Shown here one piece after another: positions 10,007 through 39,212 of a stretch of DNA of 39,212 nt (the stretch's first letter is position 1; the number at the start of each line of letters is the position of its first letter). The notes under the pieces were generated by a model. That model was not told the DNA's origin. It was given only the letters and a program-made list of their open reading frames with translations, and searched no databases. Origin of the DNA: an uncultured Bacteroidales bacterium (lineage in GTDB: Bacteria; Bacteroidota; Bacteroidia; Bacteroidales; UBA932); assembly GCA_900319975.1 (NCBI GenBank), contig ONQP01000017.1, forward strand, positions 1-39,212. The letters are read 5' to 3'. The translations under genes and the position numbers were made by a program.

Positions 10007-10909
10007 ATGATACTGCAGATCATCTTGTTGCTGACGGGCCTGGCGCTGATCATCTTCGGCGCGGACTTCCTGGTGGACGGCTCGTCCGCCATCGCCCGCA
10101 AGGCCGGCATCAGCGAATTCGTGATCGGACTGACCATCGTGGGCTTCGGCACCAGCTGCCCGGAGCTGGTGGTGAGCCTGACCGGCGCCCTGCAGGGCAA
10201 TGCCGACATCTCGGTCGGCAACGTGGTCGGGGGCATGACCGCCGTCATCGCGCCGGTGGCCGTGACCCGTTCCAACAGCCGCCGGGACATCCCCATCGCG
10301 CTGCTCGTCACCGTGCTGTTCGTGGCCCTGGGCATGACCGGCCAGCAGATCTCCCGCTGGGAGGGCATCCTCTTCCTGCTGGTCTTCGCGGCCTATATGG
10401 TCTATTGCTTCAAGTCAGACACGGGCGCGCAGGAGGAGGCCGGGGCGAAGGTCAAGAGCCTCGGGCTCGCGATCGTGCTCGTGCTGGCCGGCCTGGCCGG
10501 CCTGATCTTCGGCGGTCAGCTTTTCGTCAACAACGCCACCGCCATCGCGCGCGCCGTGGGCGTGTCCGACAAGTTCATCGCCATCACGCTGCTGGCCGGC
10601 GGCACCTCCTTCCCGGAGCTGGCCACGTGCATCGTGGCGGCGGCCAAGAAGAAGGACCAGCTGGCGCTCGGCAACGTGCTGGGTTCCAACGTGTTCAATA
10701 TCCTCCTGATCCTCGGCGCCTCCTCCGTGGTGACTCCCCTCTCGACCCTCGCGCTGACCTGGGTGGACCTGGGCGTCCTGCTCGGCAGCGCCGTGATGAT
10801 CTGGCTGTGGACCTACACCGGCCGGCGGACGCACATCGACCGCTGGGAGGCCATCCTGATGCTGGTCTCCTTCTTCGGCTACTATACCTGGCTTTTCCTC
10901 AAAATGTAA
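10007..10909 (+). CDS. CaCA-family sodium/calcium exchanger-like protein with shortened alpha-1 repeat
   Basis: 300-residue polytopic membrane protein of the YrbG-type Ca2+/cation antiporter family, which exports Ca2+ against Na+ or H+. Two inverted alpha repeats carry the ion-binding acids: GFGTSCPEL (46-54) and GGTSFPEL (198-205). Repeat two continues canonically as GNVLGSNVFNILLILG (222-237). Repeat one reads GNVVG then directly GMTAVIAPV (71-84), so ten residues equivalent to SNVFNILLIL are absent. This removes part of a core helix and the conserved Ser-Asn of that repeat. Activity is therefore doubtful even though the frame is open throughout. It lies in a tight run between rlmD and cysteate synthase. 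Confidence 0.85.
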   Translation: MILQIILLLTGLALIIFGADFLVDGSSAIARKAGISEFVIGLTIVGFGTSCPELVVSLTGALQGNADISVGNVVGGMTAVIAPVAVTRSNSRRDIPIALLVTVLFVALGMTGQQISRWEGILFLLVFAAYMVYCFKSDTGAQEEAGAKVKSLGLAIVLVLAGLAGLIFGGQLFVNNATAIARAVGVSDKFIAITLLAGGTSFPELATCIVAAAKKKDQLALGNVLGSNVFNILLILGASSVVTPLSTLALTWVDLGVLLGSAVMIWLWTYTGRRTHIDRWEAILMLVSFFGYYTWLFLKM

Positions 10910-27501: not shown

Positions 27502-28803
27502 TCACAGGACAGGCAGAACCTTCTCCATCTGGATGCCGCGGGAGCCTTTGACGAGGACGACGGCGTCGCGGACGGGGTGCGCCGCGAGGTGGGCGGCCAG
27601 GGCCGCGGAGTCGGCAAACCAGGGCTCGTCGCCCGGCTCGAGGCTCTCGAGCGCGCGGCGGAACTCCTCGCCGACCAGGCAGGCCGGGAGGCCGTCGCCG
27701 CGCAGCTGGCGCACCACTTTCTGGTGCTCGGCCAGCGACTCCTCCCCCAGCTCGCGCATGTCGCCCAGCAGGGCGAGCTTGCGCGGCGCCTGCACGTGGC
27801 GGAAGTTGTCCAGCGCGGCGCGCATCGAGGAAGGATTGGCGTTGTAGGCGTCTACGATCAGGGTGTTGGCCTGCGTGCGCACCATCTGCGAGCGGTTGTT
27901 GTCGGGGGCGAACTCCGCGATCGCGGCAATGGCGTCGGCGCGGGGCACGCCGAAATAGTCGCCGACCGCCAGGGCGGCAAGCACGTTGGTGGCGTTGTAG
28001 GCGCCGACGAGCTGCGTGCGGATGAGCTCCGCGCCCAGCTGGATGCGCAGGAACGGCTCCTCGGGCGTGGCCGGGAGGATCTGCGCGCCCTGCGCGGCAA
28101 TGCCGTAGCCGAAGGTATGGCAGGGCTGTTTGGCGGCCATTTCACGCAGGTCAGGGTCGTCTTCATTGAGGAAGATGACCGAACCGCGGTGGCTGCCGAG
28201 CCACTTGTAGAGCTCGCCCTTGGCGGCCTTGACCCCCTCGAAGGAACCGAATCCCAGCAGGTGGGCGCGGCCCACGTTGGTGATCAGGCCATAGTCGGGC
28301 TGGCTCACCCGGACCAGTTTGGCGATGTCGTCGGGGTGGTTGGCGCCCATCTCGATGACGGCGATCTCCGTCTCGGGCGTGATGGACAGCAGCGACAGGG
28401 GCACGCCGATGTCGTTGTTGAGATTGCCCTTGGTGGCGGTGATGCGGTATTTCTTCGCGAGCACGGCCGCGATGAGGTTCTTGGTGGTGGTCTTGCCGTT
28501 GGTGCCGGTCAGGCCGAGCACCGGCAGCTTGCCGTCCCGCACGTGCGTGCGGTGCCAGATGGCCAGGTCGCGCAGCGTCTGCAGCGGGTCGGCCACGCGG
28601 ATGAAGCGCGCGTCGGCGGGCAGCTCGGCGTCGTCGTTGACGACGGCCCACGCCGCCCCGCTCTCCAGCGCCTTGGCGGCATAGTCGTTGCCGTCGAAAT
28701 TCTCGCCCCGCAAGGCGAAGAAAATCTCTCCCCCGGCGATGGCGCGGCTGTCGGTGGTCACGCGGCCGCCGCAGGCCAGGTATTTCTGATACAGATCTTC
28801 CAT
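27502..28803 (-). CDS. murF: UDP-N-acetylmuramoyl-tripeptide--D-alanyl-D-alanine ligase
   Basis: 433 residues. MurF adds D-Ala-D-Ala to the UDP-MurNAc-tripeptide, the last cytoplasmic step of the peptidoglycan precursor. The N-terminal domain has VTTDSRAIAGGEIFFALRGENFDG, the ATP loop is GTNGKTTT (100-107), then ATKGNLNNDIGVPLSLL, EMGANHPDDIA, and the C-terminal DAYNANPSSMRAALDNF with LGDMRELGEES and VLVKGSRG. The ATG at 28803 is chosen because the upstream extension shows shadow composition and would run into dut. It is the last gene of a tgt-permease-dut-murF run, eight bases after dut. Confidence 0.95.
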   Translation of the reverse strand: MEDLYQKYLACGGRVTTDSRAIAGGEIFFALRGENFDGNDYAAKALESGAAWAVVNDDAELPADARFIRVADPLQTLRDLAIWHRTHVRDGKLPVLGLTGTNGKTTTKNLIAAVLAKKYRITATKGNLNNDIGVPLSLLSITPETEIAVIEMGANHPDDIAKLVRVSQPDYGLITNVGRAHLLGFGSFEGVKAAKGELYKWLGSHRGSVIFLNEDDPDLREMAAKQPCHTFGYGIAAQGAQILPATPEEPFLRIQLGAELIRTQLVGAYNATNVLAALAVGDYFGVPRADAIAAIAEFAPDNNRSQMVRTQANTLIVDAYNANPSSMRAALDNFRHVQAPRKLALLGDMRELGEESLAEHQKVVRQLRGDGLPACLVGEEFRRALESLEPGDEPWFADSAALAAHLAAHPVRDAVVLVKGSRGIQMEKVLPVL

Positions 28804-28811
28804 AAAAGCTT

Positions 28812-29246
28812 CTATTTCACGCCCGTGCTGCCGAATCCGCCGGCGCCCCGCTCCGAGGCGGCCAGCTCCTCGCTCTCCTCCCACTCGATCACCTCGTGGC
28901 GCGCGAGCACGAGTTGCGCGATGCGCTCGCCGCGCTCGATCACGAACGGCTCCGTGCCGAGGTTGACCAGAATCACGCAGACCTCGCCGCGGTAGTCCGC
29001 GTCGATGGTGCCGGGTGCGTTGAGCACCGTCACGCCGCGCTTGGCGGCCAGGCCGCTGCGCGGGCGCACCTGCACCTCATAGCCGGCCGGGATCTCCAGG
29101 AAGAGTCCCGTCGGGACCATGGCGCGCTGCATGGGCTTGAGTTCGATGGGTTCCGCATTGTCCGCGCGGACGTCCAGTCCGGCGGCCAGCGGCGTGGCAT
29201 AGGCGGGCAGCGGATTGCCGCTGCGGTTGATCACTTTGACTTTCAT
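28812..29246 (-). CDS. dut: Deoxyuridine triphosphatase (dUTPase)
   Basis: 144 residues, canonical trimeric dUTPase hydrolysing dUTP to dUMP. The five motifs appear in order: AGLDVRAD (I), [11 protein letters not shown] (II), [19 protein letters not shown] (III, catalytic Asp), GERIAQLVL (IV), and the Gly-rich C-terminal arm [10 protein letters not shown] (V) that closes over the active site. It lies four bases after the LptF/LptG-type permease gene and eight before murF. Confidence 0.96.
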
Positions 29247-32915: not shown

Positions 32916-33578
32916 TTATTGGAGCCAGGTGGAGATGAGGGCGCAGGCGTCCTCGACCGTCTCGGGGACTTTCTTGCCGGATTTGAAGTAGGCCTCGATG
33001 TCGTCCTTGTGGGCCGGGAAGAGTTTCTTCAGGCTGGCCTTGTTGAATTTGGCGACAGCGTCCCGGCAGTAGAGGCTGATGGTTTCCGTGACCGTGTAGG
33101 CCACCGGCTGGCTGGCGTTCAGCTGCTGGGTCGCTCCTTCGGCGTACAACGAACTGTATTGGCGGATGGAACTCGTCTGGTCCTTGATGCCGTAAGCGCC
33201 TTTCTTCACGTCGCGGGTGATCCTGGTGTCCCGCCGGACGGCGATCCCGATCTCGTCGCTGACCGGATACAGCCGGTAGAAAGCTCCCCCGCTCCGGAGG
33301 AACCAGACCGTGTCGATCCGCACGCGGATGATGTTATCCGGATCATTTGCCGCGAGTTCGGTGCCTTTGTCGTCGAGGAAACGGAGCGACTGGTCCACCG
33401 CGCAGATGTTGACCATCCCCTGGGCGGGCGACTGACCGCGGAGGTAGACGATTCCTTGTGCGAAAGACGGCATCAGGTAGAAGTCTTCGTCCGGAATCTT
33501 GTTGCCGGACAGCTCCTGACCCTGCAGCGCGAGCGGCGCCAGGGCCAGCATCAGAAAGAGGCTGAGAAAGTGTTTCAT
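32916..33578 (-). CDS. Exported protein of unknown function
   Basis: 220 residues. Signal peptide MKHFLSLFLMLALAPLALQGQ without a lipobox, so probably periplasmic. The first half is strand-rich (FAQGIVYLRGQSPAQGMVNICAVDQSLRFLDDKGTEL, RVRIDTVWFLRSGGAFYRLYPVSDEIGIAVRRDTRI), and the second half carries helices with Lys/Glu (FNKASLKKLFPAHKDDIEAYFKSGKK). I do not recognise the family. The first half resembles secreted Bacteroidota proteins annotated only as hypothetical. Its ATG overlaps the stop of the SprT-like gene by four bases (ATGA), so they are co-translated. It precedes a terminator-like hairpin that is oriented to work both ways. Confidence 0.7.
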   Translation of the reverse strand: MKHFLSLFLMLALAPLALQGQELSGNKIPDEDFYLMPSFAQGIVYLRGQSPAQGMVNICAVDQSLRFLDDKGTELAANDPDNIIRVRIDTVWFLRSGGAFYRLYPVSDEIGIAVRRDTRITRDVKKGAYGIKDQTSSIRQYSSLYAEGATQQLNASQPVAYTVTETISLYCRDAVAKFNKASLKKLFPAHKDDIEAYFKSGKKVPETVEDACALISTWLQ

Positions 33579-34219
33579 ATCGTTGTAGATTCGTTCATAT
33601 GCTTGTGGAGCTCGTCCGGATCGACCGGGAAGAGCTTGGGGGTGCGGCAGCGCGGGAAGCGGTTGAACCAGGGGTCCGTGCTGCAATACCAGGCGCTGGC
33701 GCGGACGGTCGGCGACCACTTGAAGGCGCGGCGGATGGCGCGGATGCGCGGCTCCGCCACGACGGTCACGGCCGTGCGTCCGTCGGCGAGCTGAGAAATG
33801 CAAAAAAAGTGCCTGGAGATGCGCGTGTCGCGGTCCAGCTCTTCCGGCGTGGATTTGTGGGAAATGGTCAGGTGCCGGCCGTGCCGCTCGTTGATCTCCT
33901 TCATCTTCGCCCGGAAGGCCTTCCCGTGCGTAGAAGTGTCCCTGATGCCCTCCAGCGCGATCCAGTAGTGGATCATTTCGTGGATGAGCGTGTCCTCGAC
34001 CTCCGCTTCCTGCAGGTCGAAGCGCGTGCTGATGCGCAGCACGAAATCCTCGCGCCGCACGATCAGGCCCAGCCAGTCGCGCACGGGCCGATACTGCAGG
34101 CGCCCCACGAAGCTGCGGGCGTTGCTCAGGCGGATCGGAATACGCGGAAGAGCGCCCTCGAAACACATCGCGTTGAATGTGTCGAAGCGCTCCTCCAGGT
34201 ATTCGACGGTGGGCTTCAC
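33575..34219 (-). CDS. SprT-like zinc metalloprotease-domain protein
   Basis: 214 residues. The SprT-like domain is recognised from VEYLEERFDTFNAMCFEGALPRIPIRLSNAR, RISTRFDLQEAEVEDTLIHEMIHYW with the HExxH zinc motif (HEMIH), and THGKAFRAKMKEIN. A SprT zinc ribbon is not evident at the C-terminus, where only scattered cysteines occur. The eukaryotic relative Spartan degrades DNA-protein crosslinks; bacterial SprT-like proteins are uncharacterised, so substrate and role are open. It starts two bases after the kbl stop codon region and overlaps the next exported-protein gene by four bases, so kbl and these two genes probably share a transcript. Confidence 0.82.
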   Translation of the reverse strand: MKPTVEYLEERFDTFNAMCFEGALPRIPIRLSNARSFVGRLQYRPVRDWLGLIVRREDFVLRISTRFDLQEAEVEDTLIHEMIHYWIALEGIRDTSTHGKAFRAKMKEINERHGRHLTISHKSTPEELDRDTRISRHFFCISQLADGRTAVTVVAEPRIRAIRRAFKWSPTVRASAWYCSTDPWFNRFPRCRTPKLFPVDPDELHKHMNESTTI

Positions 34220-34220
34220 G

Positions 34221-35411
34221 CTATTTGATCACGCCCAGGTTTTTGCCGACCTTGATGAAGGCGGCGATGGCCTTGTCCAGTTGCTCGCGCGTGTGCGCGG
34301 CCGACAGCTGCACGCGGATGCGCGCCTGCCCCTTCGGGACGACGGGATAATAGAAACCCGTCACGAAGATGCCTTCCTTGGCCATTTCGGCCGCGAAGCG
34401 CTGGCTGAGCGGCGCGTCGTAGAGCATCACCGCGCAGATGGCGCTCTGCGTGGGCTTGATGTCGAAGCCCGCCGCGAGCATCTTCTCGCGGAAATAGGCG
34501 ACGTTCTCCTGCTGGCGGTCGTGGAGCGCGTCGCTCTCGTCGAGCATCTTGAAGAGCTCGATGCCCGCGGCGCAGATCATCGGCGGCAGCGAGTTGGAGA
34601 ACAGATACGGCCGGCTGCGCTGGCGCAGCATGTCGATGATCTCCTGCCGGCCGGTGGTGAAGCCGCCCACGGCGCCGCCGAAGCTCTTGCCGAGCGTGCC
34701 GGTGTGGATGTCGATGCGGCCGTAGAGGTTGTACAGCTCGGCCACGCCGCGGCCCTTCGGGCCCACGACGCCGGCGCTGTGGCTCTCGTCCACCATCACG
34801 AGCGCGTCGTATTTCTCCGCCAGTTCGCAGATCTTGTCCATCGGGGCGACGTTGCCGTCCATCGAGAACACGCCGTCGGTCACGATAATGCGGAAACGCT
34901 GCGCCTGGGCCTCCTGGAGGCATTTCTCCAGCTCGGCCATGTCGGCGTTGGCGTAGCGGTAGCGGACGGCCTTGCAGAGGCGCACGCCGTCGATGATGGA
35001 GGCGTGGTTGAGTGCGTCGGAGATGATGGCGTCGTCGGCGGTCAGCAGCGGCTCGAACACGCCGCCGTTGGCGTCGAAGCACGCCGCATAGAGGATGGTG
35101 TCGTCCGTATGGAAATAGGCGGAAATCGCCTTCTCGAGCTCGCGGTGCAGGTCCTGGCAGCCGCAGATGAAGCGGACGGAGGACATGCCGAAGCCCCGCT
35201 CGTCCATCGCCTTCTTGGCGGCGGCGATCAGGCGCGGGTTGTCCGAGAGGCCGAGATAGTTGTTGGCGCAGAAATTCAGGGCCTTGCTGCCGTCGGCGAG
35301 GGTGATCTCGGCGCCCTGCGGCGAGCAGATGGTCCGCTCGCGCTTGTAGAGGCCGGCCTCATCGATGGCTTTCAGCTCCTGTTGCAGATAAGATTGAAAC
35401 TTTCCGTACAT
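34221..35411 (-). CDS. kbl: Glycine C-acetyltransferase (2-amino-3-ketobutyrate CoA ligase)
   Basis: 396 residues, nearly colinear with E. coli KBL: NFCANNYLGLSDNP, GFGMSSVRFICGCQDLHRELE, DANGGVFEPLL, ISDALNHASIIDGVRLCKA, MVDESHSAGVVG, and the PLP lysine Lys242 in TGTLGKSFGGA, then RPYLFSNSLPP and GQARIRVQLSAAHT. It cleaves 2-amino-3-ketobutyrate with CoA to glycine and acetyl-CoA. Its partner enzyme TDH is encoded at 36655-37599 on the other strand. KBL belongs to the same alpha-oxoamine synthase family as the cysteate acyltransferase of sulfonolipid synthesis, but the close match to KBL and the TDH neighbour argue against that role. Confidence 0.95.
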   Translation of the reverse strand: MYGKFQSYLQQELKAIDEAGLYKRERTICSPQGAEITLADGSKALNFCANNYLGLSDNPRLIAAAKKAMDERGFGMSSVRFICGCQDLHRELEKAISAYFHTDDTILYAACFDANGGVFEPLLTADDAIISDALNHASIIDGVRLCKAVRYRYANADMAELEKCLQEAQAQRFRIIVTDGVFSMDGNVAPMDKICELAEKYDALVMVDESHSAGVVGPKGRGVAELYNLYGRIDIHTGTLGKSFGGAVGGFTTGRQEIIDMLRQRSRPYLFSNSLPPMICAAGIELFKMLDESDALHDRQQENVAYFREKMLAAGFDIKPTQSAICAVMLYDAPLSQRFAAEMAKEGIFVTGFYYPVVPKGQARIRVQLSAAHTREQLDKAIAAFIKVGKNLGVIK

Positions 35412-35443
35412 AGCTTATGTGGTTTGTTGTTGTCCTTGTTGAA

Positions 35444-35522
35444 CAAAGATAGTCACATTCTCCCGGATTTCCGCCATCTGCTTACATTTTGTTGCGGATC
35501 AGGAGATTTTTGGTTAACTTCG
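35444..35522. promoter_or_regulatory. Divergent promoters of kbl and the phosphotransferase-tdh unit
   Basis: Rightward: TTG (35492-35494), 20-base spacer, TAACTTCG (35515-35522), 19 bases before the ATG at 35542. Leftward: TATCTTTG (minus, 35444-35451), 32 bases before the kbl ATG, without a clear -33. The shared region would allow joint control of the two threonine-degradation genes. Confidence 0.6.
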
Positions 35523-35541
35523 CACTGCTTTTGACCGCATA

Positions 35542-36619
35542 ATGGAAGAAATCTTAAAACACTTTGATATCCAAGGGAATGTCCTTGAGGTCAAGCCGCT
35601 CGGCAACGGTCTCATCAACGACACCCTGCTCGTCGTCACCGACGGACCGGACAACTACGTCCTCCAGCGCATCAACGACGCCATCTTCCGGGACGTCGAC
35701 CTCCTGCAGCACAACATCGACTGCGCCACGGCGCACATCCGCCGCAATCCGCCGCAAGCTGGCCGGCGATCCCGACATCGACCGCAAGGTCCTGACCTTC
35801 CTCCCCTGCCGCGAGACCGGCAAGAGCTACTGGACCGACGGCAAGGCCTTCTGGCGCGTCTCCGTGTTCATCAAGGACGCCTTCACCTACGAACTTGTAG
35901 ATCCCAAATATTCCTATTTCGCGGGCAAGGCCTTCGGCCATTTCGAGGCGATGCTCGCCGACATTCCCGACAGGCTGGGCGAGACCATTCCCGACTTCCA
36001 CAACATGGAATTGCGCGCCCGGCAGCTCCACGAGGCCGTGCAGGCGGACGCCGCGGGCCGGATGGCGGAGCCCGAGGTCCGCGCCATCCTGGCCGACCTG
36101 CTCCCCTACGAGGAGGAGATGTGCAAGGCGGAGCGGATGTACCGCGAGGGCATCCTGCCCAAGCGCATCTGCCACTGCGACACCAAGGTCAACAACATGC
36201 TCTTCGACGCCGACGGCAACATCCTCTGCGTCATCGACCTGGACACGCTGATGCCCTCGTTCGTCTTCTCGGACTACGGCGATTTCCTCCGCACGGCGGC
36301 CAACGCCGTGGCCGAGGACGACCCGCACGTGGACCGGGTGCGCTTCAAGATGGACATCTTCGAGGCCTTCACCCGCGGCTACCTGGAGTCGGCGCGCGTC
36401 TTCCTGACGCCCGTGGAGATCGCGAACCTCCCCTACGCCGCCTGCCTCTTCCCGTATATGCAGGCCGTCCGCTTTTTCACGGACTACATCAACGGCGACA
36501 CCTACTACAAGATCAAGTACCCGGAGCACAACCTGGTCCGCACCCGCAACCAGGTGGCGCTGTTCCATGCGGCGCTCGACAAAGTCCCGGAGATGGAGGC
36601 GTTCATCGCTTCGCTCTGA
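35542..36619 (+). pseudogene. Aminoglycoside-phosphotransferase-fold kinase (hexosamine kinase-like), frameshifted
   Basis: The protein is recognisable as a Bacteroidota APH-fold kinase close to N-acetylhexosamine 1-kinases, which phosphorylate amino sugars in the cytoplasm. The first 68 codons from ATG 35542 are good (EVKPLGNGLINDTLL, DNYVLQRINDAIFRDVDLLQHNID, AHIRR). The frame then shifts, and the rest continues in the next frame (KLAGDPDIDRKVLTFLP onward) to TGA at 36617-36619, with the catalytic HCDTKVNNMLF, VIDLDTLMPSFVFSDYGDF and YPEHNLVRT all intact. The cause is a tandem ten-base duplication at 35737-35756. Removing one copy restores an uninterrupted protein of about 355 residues. As written the gene is broken. 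It could be a recent mutation, an assembly error or a switchable repeat. It precedes tdh by 35 bases. Confidence 0.88.
35737..35756 (+). repeat. Two-copy 10-bp tandem repeat causing the frameshift
   Basis: ATCCGCCGCA occurs twice in direct succession (35737-35746 and 35747-35756). One copy gives codons for His-Ile-Arg-Arg-Lys-Leu-Ala-Gly-Asp, which fits the family; two copies shift the frame by +1. Confidence 0.95.
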
Positions 36620-36654
36620 AAACAGAACCCCACAGACACTAAAACGATATTACG

Positions 36655-37599
36655 ATGAAAAATGTACTCGTCATCGGATCGACCGGCCAGATCGGCTCGG
36701 AGCTGACGATGCAACTTAGAAAGATTTATCACCAGGGCCGGATCGTCGCCGGCTACATCCCCGGATCCGCGCCCACGGGCGACCTGCTGGAAAGCGGTCC
36801 CGCCGAGCAGGCCAACGTCTGCAACGGACAGCAGATCGCGGAGATCGTCGACAAATACGACATCGACACCATCTACAACCTCGCCGCGCTACTCTCGGCC
36901 ACGGCCGAGCGGCTTCCGCTCAAGGCCTGGGACATCCAGATGAACGGCCTGATCAACATCCTGGAAGTGGCACGCGAGAAGCATTGCGCCGTGTTCACGC
37001 CCTCCTCCATCGGATCCTTCGGCCCGGACACCCCGCGCGACAATACGCCGCAGGACACCATCCAGCGCCCGACCTCGATGTACGGCGTGACCAAGGTCGC
37101 CACCGAGTTGCTCAGCGATTATTATTACCACAAATACGGCGTGGACACGCGCTCCCCCGGCCTGATCTCCTACAAGACCCTGCCCGGCGGCGGCACGACG
37201 GACTACGCCGTCGAGATCTACTACGCCGCGGTCAAGGGCGAAGAATTCGTCTGCCCGCTCGCGCACGGCACCTACCTCGACATGATGTATATGCCGGACG
37301 CCATCAAGGCCGCCATCAAGCTGATGGAGGCCGACCCGCGCTATCTGGTGCACCGCAATGCCTTCAACATCGCCTCGATGAGCTTCGACCCGGAAGGCGT
37401 GTATGAAGCCATCCGCAAGCACATCCCGACCTTCAAGATGCGCTACGAGGTGGATCCGGTCCGCCAGGCCATCGCGGACTCCTGGCCCAACAAAATGGAC
37501 GACGTCTGTGCCCGTAAAGAGTGGGGCTGGACGCCGTCCTATAATCTGGATTCAATGACCCGCGATATGATCAAACATCTGCGGGAAAAGCTGCTTTAA
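36655..37599 (+). CDS. tdh: L-threonine 3-dehydrogenase (short-chain, NAD-epimerase type)
   Basis: 314 residues of the extended short-chain dehydrogenase family. The NAD loop is GSTGQIG (8-14), the active-site pair Tyr143/Lys147 lies in SMYGVTKVATELL, and FTPSSIGSFGPDTP, GLISYKTLPGGGTTDYAVEIYYAA and CPLAHGTYLDMMYMPDAI match the non-metallo TDH type found in bacteria and animals. It oxidises threonine to 2-amino-3-ketobutyrate, the substrate of Kbl encoded just to the left on the opposite strand. It lies downstream of the frameshifted kinase gene with a 35-base gap, so ribosome drop-off in the kinase could affect transcript stability and TDH expression. Confidence 0.92.
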   Translation: MKNVLVIGSTGQIGSELTMQLRKIYHQGRIVAGYIPGSAPTGDLLESGPAEQANVCNGQQIAEIVDKYDIDTIYNLAALLSATAERLPLKAWDIQMNGLINILEVAREKHCAVFTPSSIGSFGPDTPRDNTPQDTIQRPTSMYGVTKVATELLSDYYYHKYGVDTRSPGLISYKTLPGGGTTDYAVEIYYAAVKGEEFVCPLAHGTYLDMMYMPDAIKAAIKLMEADPRYLVHRNAFNIASMSFDPEGVYEAIRKHIPTFKMRYEVDPVRQAIADSWPNKMDDVCARKEWGWTPSYNLDSMTRDMIKHLREKLL

Positions 37600-37602
37600 C
37601 GC

Positions 37603-38898
37603 CTATCTGCGACGCTTGCGGCCGCCACGCTTGTTGCCGAAGCGGCGCGTGACCGCGAAGATGATGATGGCGGCGAGCACCACGCCGATGACGATCATCG
37701 TCATCGCGTTGGCGTTCTCGCCCTTCACGCGGCCCCACATCGCCACGAGCTCCGGGGTCTTCTCGCCCCAGTCGTGCTCCTGGGCGCTGCGCTCGATGTC
37801 CTCGCGCTTCGGATAGAGCACCGGGTTGACGCGCACGGAGTCGGCCTCGGCGCCGAAGAAGTAGGTCAGGTCGATCGGCTCGAATTCCTCGTCGACGAAC
37901 TCATCCAGCACCTCGGTGGAACCGCTCACGGACACATAGCCGGTCTCCTCGACGTTGCGGATCACGATGTCCGGACGGCTCATGAAGTTGATCCAGTACT
38001 TCGCGGCCTTGGTGTTCCGGGCGTATTTCGGGATCACCCAGCCGTCAAACCACACGGTGAAGCCTTCCTTCGGGAGGGCGTAGCGCAGGTCGACGTCCAT
38101 CTCGGCGGCCTCTTCGATGGCCCAGACGGCGTCGCCGCTCCAGTTCAGGCTGATCCAGCCGCGCTCCTGCGTCATCTGGTCCTTGCCGAAATCGGCCTCC
38201 CAGCCTGCCACGAGCGGCTTGACCTGCTTCATGAACTGCTCGACGGCAGCCATGGAGGAGTCGGAAGAATCGAGCATCAGCTCGTCAGCGGTGACCTTGC
38301 CCTCGCGGAGGTCTTCCTGGCGCAGGAAGAAGATGATCTGCGAGAAGACGTCGCGGGCGGAGTCCTTGATGAAGATCTTGTCGGCGAACTTCTCGTTGCG
38401 CAGGATGTCCCAGGTGGAAGCTTCCTCCTCGGTGACATACTTGGCGTTGTAGAGGATGCCGGTGGTGCCCCACATATAGCCGACGGCGTAGTCGTTGGCG
38501 TTCTTGCCGCCACCGATCATCTTGTCGAAGCAGGCACGGATGTAGGGCGACATGTTGTCGTCGATGTAGTTGGGCGTCTGGCCGAAGTCGCGGTCGATCG
38601 GCAGGAGCAGGTCGCTCGCGAGCATGCGCTCGATGATGTAGTCCGAGGGGCAGACGACGTCGTAGTCCTCGTGGCCTTTCTCGATCTTGGAAAGCATCGT
38701 CTCGTTGATGTCGAAGGTCTGGTAGATGACCTTGACCGGCTCGCCGGTCTGCTCTTCATACCAGCTCTCGAACTCCTCGATGACGGTCTCGTCGATGTAG
38801 TCGGACCAGTTGTAGACTTTCAGGATCTGGCTCCGGTCCTGGGAGCAGCCGCACAGCAACAGGGCGGCGGCAGCCAAAAGGGTAAGGGATTTCTTCAT
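37603..38898 (-). CDS. potD: Spermidine/putrescine ABC transporter substrate-binding lipoprotein with C-terminal membrane anchor
   Basis: 431 residues. The N-terminus MKKSLTLLAAAALLLCGCSQ is a lipoprotein-type signal (Cys18). The binding protein follows PotD: LKVYNWSDYIDETVIEEFE, DVVCPSDYIIERM, YAVGYMWGTTGILYN, WISLNWSGDAVWA and FWFDGWVIPKYA-like sequence (TVWFDGWVIPKYARN). After about residue 398 comes an unusual tail: one hydrophobic helix (TMIVIGVVLAAIIIFAV) and a very basic end (RRFGNKRGGRKRRR). A substrate-binding protein normally has no such helix, so this one may be doubly anchored. It overlaps the potC stop by one base (TAATG). Confidence 0.9.
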   Translation of the reverse strand: MKKSLTLLAAAALLLCGCSQDRSQILKVYNWSDYIDETVIEEFESWYEEQTGEPVKVIYQTFDINETMLSKIEKGHEDYDVVCPSDYIIERMLASDLLLPIDRDFGQTPNYIDDNMSPYIRACFDKMIGGGKNANDYAVGYMWGTTGILYNAKYVTEEEASTWDILRNEKFADKIFIKDSARDVFSQIIFFLRQEDLREGKVTADELMLDSSDSSMAAVEQFMKQVKPLVAGWEADFGKDQMTQERGWISLNWSGDAVWAIEEAAEMDVDLRYALPKEGFTVWFDGWVIPKYARNTKAAKYWINFMSRPDIVIRNVEETGYVSVSGSTEVLDEFVDEEFEPIDLTYFFGAEADSVRVNPVLYPKREDIERSAQEHDWGEKTPELVAMWGRVKGENANAMTMIVIGVVLAAIIIFAVTRRFGNKRGGRKRRR

Positions 38899-39212
38899 TA
38901 TTTGTTTGCGGATTTTTTCATTTTCTCCTGGCGGACATTGATGATGACCAGCAGGACGAGGATAATCAGGAAAATCAGGGTCATCAGCGGCCGCAGCTCG
39001 GGCGTCAGGCCGCCCTTGCGCGCATCCGTGTAGATGTAGGTCGACAGCGTGTCGAGGCCGATGGTGCCGCGCGTGAAGAACGTCACGGCGAAATCGTCCA
39101 GCGACATCGTGAACGCGAGGATGAAACCGGAGACCATGCCGGGCCGCAGCTGGGGCACGAGCACCTTCCAGAGGGCCTGGCTGGGCGTGGCGCCCAGGTC
39201 GAGGGCCGCTTC
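38898..39212 (-). CDS. potC: Spermidine/putrescine ABC transporter permease PotC, C-terminal part
   Basis: The frame enters from beyond the right edge; 104 residues are visible. It begins within the EAA loop that contacts the ATPase (EAALDLGATPSQALWKVLVPQL, then RPG), followed by a helix with SLDDFAVTFFTRG, the conserved polyamine-permease segment, LSTYIYTDARKGGLTPELRPLMTL and a last hydrophobic helix with a basic tail. It belongs to the inner-membrane channel of the polyamine importer. potD follows with a one-base overlap. potA and potB are expected just beyond the window. Confidence 0.92.
   Translation of the reverse strand, partial: EAALDLGATPSQALWKVLVPQLRPGMVSGFILAFTMSLDDFAVTFFTRGTIGLDTLSTYIYTDARKGGLTPELRPLMTLIFLIILVLLVIINVRQEKMKKSANK

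Follow-up and report, generated by a model that had tools for sequence, protein, structure and literature searches.

Simple-sequence contingency genes, which are phase-variable, carry a tandem repeat within the reading frame, with a unit that is not a multiple of three. N-acetylhexosamine 1-kinase (NahK) is known from solved structures (PDB 4wh1, 4ocj and 4ocu), and spurious pseudogenes have been described from low-coverage assemblies (Cooley and Wright 2024, PMC11017572). Here we analysed a stretch of 39,212 nucleotides (the window) in which a kinase gene is interrupted by a short exact duplication. The locus resembles contingency genes in the position of its tandem repeat within a frame and in its non-triplet unit; it differs from them in having two units only, in lying in a metabolic gene and in showing no variation of copy number among relatives (one genome per species). 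It resembles NahK in that the intact homologue of a close relative is homologous over nearly the full length and in that the APH fold (PF01636) scores above cut-off, and differs in that the window gene lies in two frames and has kbl and tdh as neighbours; phosphorylation of GlcNAc/GalNAc at C1 is putative here. With the spurious pseudogenes of low-coverage assemblies it shares frameshifted genes in an otherwise sound assembly and relatives that lack them. The difference is that the lesions here are duplications and deletions of 9-43 bp, a kind that the relevant passages of that paper do not describe.

The kinase gene and its surroundings comprise the following features:

34221..35411, minus strand: kbl, glycine C-acetyltransferase (TIGR01822, E = 1e-205, above cut-off)
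35542..36642, plus strand: reading frame as deposited, open through 68 normal residues and then out of frame to TAA at 36642
35542..35745, plus strand: N-terminal piece of the kinase, 68 residues in the normal frame (from translation, aligned with relatives)
35737..35757, plus strand: 10-bp exact tandem duplication that breaks the frame, two copies of ATCCGCCGCA and one matching base; single copy in the nearest relative found
35759..36619, plus strand: C-terminal kinase piece, read in the other frame up to its stop codon (from translation; PF01636, E = 7.5e-11 for 35738-36616)
36655..37599, plus strand: tdh, L-threonine 3-dehydrogenase-like, without VRF at 37155; the relative's product matches solved threonine dehydrogenase

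The initial annotation had placed a ten-base tandem duplication at 35737..35756, splitting one gene into two frames, and both points stand. Two exact adjoining copies of ATCCGCCGCA occupy 35737-35746 and 35747-35756, and one extra base matches after the second copy, extending the perfect run to 35757. From the ATG at 35542 the gene encodes 68 normal residues, and its remainder runs in a different frame to the TGA at 36619; the kinase frame of the window is thus broken, and both pieces are collinear within a single intact gene of the nearest relative. The shifted frame has no early stop. The predicted product would consist of 68 kinase residues followed by unrelated sequence and, therefore, should be inactive. 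Programmed frameshifting as a rescue was considered by eye only and dismissed, no homopolymer being seen in the repeat. As a bare repeat the pair is only mildly unusual: no other exact tandem with a unit of 10, 11, 13, 14, 16, 17, 19 or 20 bp was found in the window, and at least one such tandem appeared in 5 of 100 dinucleotide-preserving shuffles of the window. It is the comparison with the intact collinear gene that makes it an event rather than a bare repeat.

The gene had been called hexosamine-kinase-like, which agrees with our searches. The intact homologue in the nearest relative matched solved NahK (4wh1) with E = 5.7e-63, aligning over residues 4-342 of 355, and the C-terminal piece in the window matched the APH family as listed above. 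The two window pieces carry the stretches PLGNGLINDT, CHCDTKVNN and VIDLDT, which align with solved NahK in the relative and which we take to be family motifs. To the extent examined, this bears out the earlier statement that all family motifs are intact. Against its own genome the C-terminal piece matched only itself (E <= 1e-5), and PADLOC assigned the kinase to none of its families. In two of the four relatives with annotated neighbours, the kinase is flanked by GH3 and GH109 genes. These flanks fit amino-sugar salvage but are only suggestive, and the substrate of the kinase is putative. By homology, the gene is a real one of the N-acetylhexosamine 1-kinase type.

We compared the duplication site across relatives, one genome per species. 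The source, an uncultured gut bacterium, is represented by a metagenome-assembled draft genome (MAG; G000) with 132 contigs and 88% completeness, in which the window forms contig C55. Of 400 genomes from the genus, 163 gave a match to the site region, and the 80 named relatives that were retained are MAGs or other uncultured assemblies, mostly of Bacteroidales or Bacteroidia and many from ruminants. The nearest relative found, G137, is a 5-contig genome with 94% identity over the duplication stretch; its kinase DNA has one ATCCGCCGCA copy and is 10 bp shorter exactly at the duplication. Among 110 kinase loci both pieces were in frame in 106, out of frame in one (the window itself, L001), and one piece was absent in three (L029, L066 and L107). 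Extending the set to 132 loci, some of them redundant, gave 127 in a single frame, two that were the window's own and three without one piece; as many of these loci are the same contigs, we counted by distinct gene sequence, of which the 127 hold 104. None of the 104 distinct single-frame sequences (again one genome per species) carries a second ATCCGCCGCA copy, and the exact unit is present once in 23 of them. On this comparison, the duplication is private to the source genome among the relatives seen. One of the 104 (L028, from G035) has a separate lesion: three in-frame TAG codons within an extra stretch close to the C-terminus.

Gene order around tdh was analysed in 30 loci, the best of the matches found in 123 of 200 genomes. 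In 28 of these 30, kbl and tdh are direct divergent neighbours (L137-L164, compared with window 34221-37599), and the kinase separates them only in the source genome and in G137; it is therefore probably a late insertion here. The initial annotation had also raised a polar effect on tdh. We judge this weak, because the shifted kinase frame has no early stop and remains open to 36642, 12 bases ahead of the tdh ATG at 36655. A search for terminator-like sites in 35400-36700 gave none; the search does not address Rho.

Polarised against two outgroups, the amino-acid changes in the kinase fell as two on the window branch and nine on the G137 branch, with four unclear. Neither these changes nor the comparison with G137 gave any sign of relaxed selection or of further lesions inside the window kinase, in keeping with the earlier observation that the rest of the gene shows no decay. 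The kinase was thus constrained up to the duplication event, or is so still. Since no other decay was found, the duplication should be either recent or an artefact, both among the options that had been listed at the outset.

The initial annotation described the duplication itself correctly; other lesions of the same genome had been missed. Relative to G137, tdh has a private in-frame 9-bp deletion at 37155, which removes VRF from DTRSVRFPG; these residues are kept by the other 29 of the 30 best-matching loci, and a solved designed threonine dehydrogenase has RSVRYPG at this position. A lesion of the same kind affects a separate gene:

10007..10909, plus strand: Na+/Ca2+ exchanger with a private in-frame 30-bp deletion at 10231

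This deletion removes SNIFNTLLIL of the first alpha repeat (compared with G137), whereas each of the 29 other loci among 30 retains a full-length GSNI[FC]N...ILG. Both deletions also appear in a comparison of window reading frames, for which 31 were chosen, three skipped and 28 compared, two of them across three genomes and the others across four. It excludes the kinase (which G159 and G008 do not have there), and some of its rows are probably shadow or composite frames. Over the 28 frames, private indels numbered two in the source genome (the 30 bp and 9 bp deletions), one in G137, six in G159 and 14 in G008, nine of the last being spurious products of one 156-residue match. Read by eye, the private indels of G137, G159 and G008 lie mostly in variable stretches.

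We also looked at other contigs of the source genome, sampling 60 stretches, 20 of which were short contigs consisting wholly of N (contigs below 3 kb are read as N); the readable sample, including the window, came to 625,311 bases. It contains five exact non-triplet tandems of 10-70 bp. Besides the kinase pair, a 10-bp tandem duplication splits the DAHP synthase gene (C72:1094-1113, L223), which is 10 bp shorter, with one copy, in G137, and a 43-bp tandem duplication splits the end of pyrB, with its PyrI_C domain (C78:797-882, L288), where the G137 match is 43 bp shorter; the remaining two look harmless on six-frame reading. The split DAHP synthase, in two frames, was the sole match in this genome (88% complete, contigs below 3 kb as N). 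Flanking homology at the three gene-breaking duplications was 0-1 base. A comparison sample of 1,480,960 bases from G137, G159/G008 and 80 MAG loci contained 10 comparable tandem sites, none of them judged gene-breaking (eight by eye, two by equal length of the homologue). Thus, there were three gene-breaking duplications in 625 kb of the source genome and none in 1,481 kb of the others, numbers that are small and partly by eye. The chance of all three falling in the source genome by its share of bases is 0.026, assuming equal proneness and for a pattern noticed post hoc. The five lesions also lie closer to contig ends than expected (P ~0.03, likewise post hoc, with three of them on one contig). 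Such lesions elsewhere in the same genome point away from a special property of the kinase site. A further candidate, a short in-frame repeat lacking four residues, was seen on contig C84 (L226).

Generally poor contig quality was considered as well and is not supported by the following counts. Among 46 genes conserved in G159/G008, a set that excludes the kinase and DAHP synthase, no frame splits were found. Searching G137 reading frames against the source genome gave eight split rows for 270 frames with matches, which we read as the kinase and its shadow (two), DAHP synthase (one) and gene ends or intergenic stretches (five). The reverse search gave six split rows for 236 frames: a DAHP synthase fragment (one), the kinase (two) and three read as shadow frames, of which 27577-28995 and 37774-39033 lie opposite called genes and 32916-34166 has no Pfam match.

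Two repeat features were observed in passing. Within the window, 130 bp at 484-613 are in the opposite orientation in G137, with a 98.5% match, and the reversed stretch is bounded by 21-bp perfect inverted repeats (474-494 and 606-626). Positions 474-626 could represent a segment capable of inversion or, alternatively, an intergenic repeat element that has inserted either way round; if a genuine switch is sought in this window, they are a better candidate than the kinase repeat. Beside pyrB (L288:560-1300), parts of about 25-55 bp match dispersed places, 12 in G137, 26 in G159 and 13 in G008 (the pyrB locus included), and are possibly members of a small intergenic repeat family.

We consider it rather probable that the kinase duplication is an assembly error of this MAG and that the organism most likely has an unbroken gene. 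The short duplications and deletions would then be errors caused by thin coverage during assembly; two ends might, for instance, have been joined with a short overlap left uncollapsed, a joining mechanism at which we guess. Our literature searches on this point gave no published description of an assembler fault that produces such lesions, or of such overlap joining, which counts against this reading. The indels hit conserved cores, including that of a biosynthetic gene for which no second copy was found, and therefore look unfiltered by selection, as if they were very young or absent from the organism; it is for this reason that we favour assembly error. The same reading is supported by the absence of a second copy from all 104 distinct relatives, by the DAHP synthase and pyrB duplications set against a larger comparison sample with none judged gene-breaking, by the finding that the only private indels in the 28 window frames each cut a motif kept by 29 of 30 loci, by the unrelaxed selection on the kinase, by the minimal flanking homology and by the proximity to contig ends. 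However, a 20-base repeat can be spanned by ordinary reads, the intact conserved genes indicate that the contigs are not error-ridden in general, and the excess rests on small counts at the chance level given above. A genuine and very recent loss of function, in which a kinase that is maybe dispensable was put out of action by a short tandem duplication within the population sampled, is a less likely but serious alternative. Base quality is otherwise good, the kinase of G035 has been damaged independently, the position between kbl and tdh is limited to the source genome and G137 among the 30 best tdh loci, and damage to tdh as well would be in keeping with the whole neighbourhood being lost. 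It is harder to reconcile with the kinase showing no relaxed selection, and with the hits to pyrB and to the sole detected DAHP synthase, as these would be hard to lose together (with the completeness and masking of contigs stated above).

The remaining explanations fare worse. That the lineage has a genuine process still generating short tandem duplications and short deletions genome-wide, such as a mobile element with 10-bp target duplications or an uncommon repair pathway, is very improbable; if it were true, the lesions in the kinase, DAHP synthase and pyrB would be natural ones that might revert. A footprint of a mobile element, either as a 10-bp target-site duplication or with the element lost from the assembly between the copies, would agree with the size of two of the three gene-breaking duplications, each of exactly 10 bp and with an additional match of 0-1 base. 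We nevertheless regard it as highly improbable, as the third is 43 bp and a PF01609 transposase was found in none of four genomes, compared with nine of 14 control genomes (for PF01609 only, contigs below 3 kb being N). A two-unit exact repeat can in principle slip back, and the initial annotation had thus allowed for on/off switching by slipped strands, with two copies OFF and one copy ON. The exact adjoining repeat and its non-triplet unit are what such a switch would need, but it has only two units, lies in a metabolic gene, and would leave the similar lesions elsewhere in the genome requiring a different cause. Phase variation was rejected on the comparison with the 104 relatives, and we hold a switch here to be extremely improbable.

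Assembly error thus being the preferred reading, the locus calls for caution: two clean adjacent copies in a MAG gene can mimic a switch, and this assembly has comparable lesions in genes expected to be intact. Screening the same genome for other private indels that remove motifs offers an inexpensive check on findings of this type. The duplication is an ordinary finding unless the lesions are confirmed in raw reads. If they are real, this organism would, unusually, have undergone several recent gene losses simultaneously.
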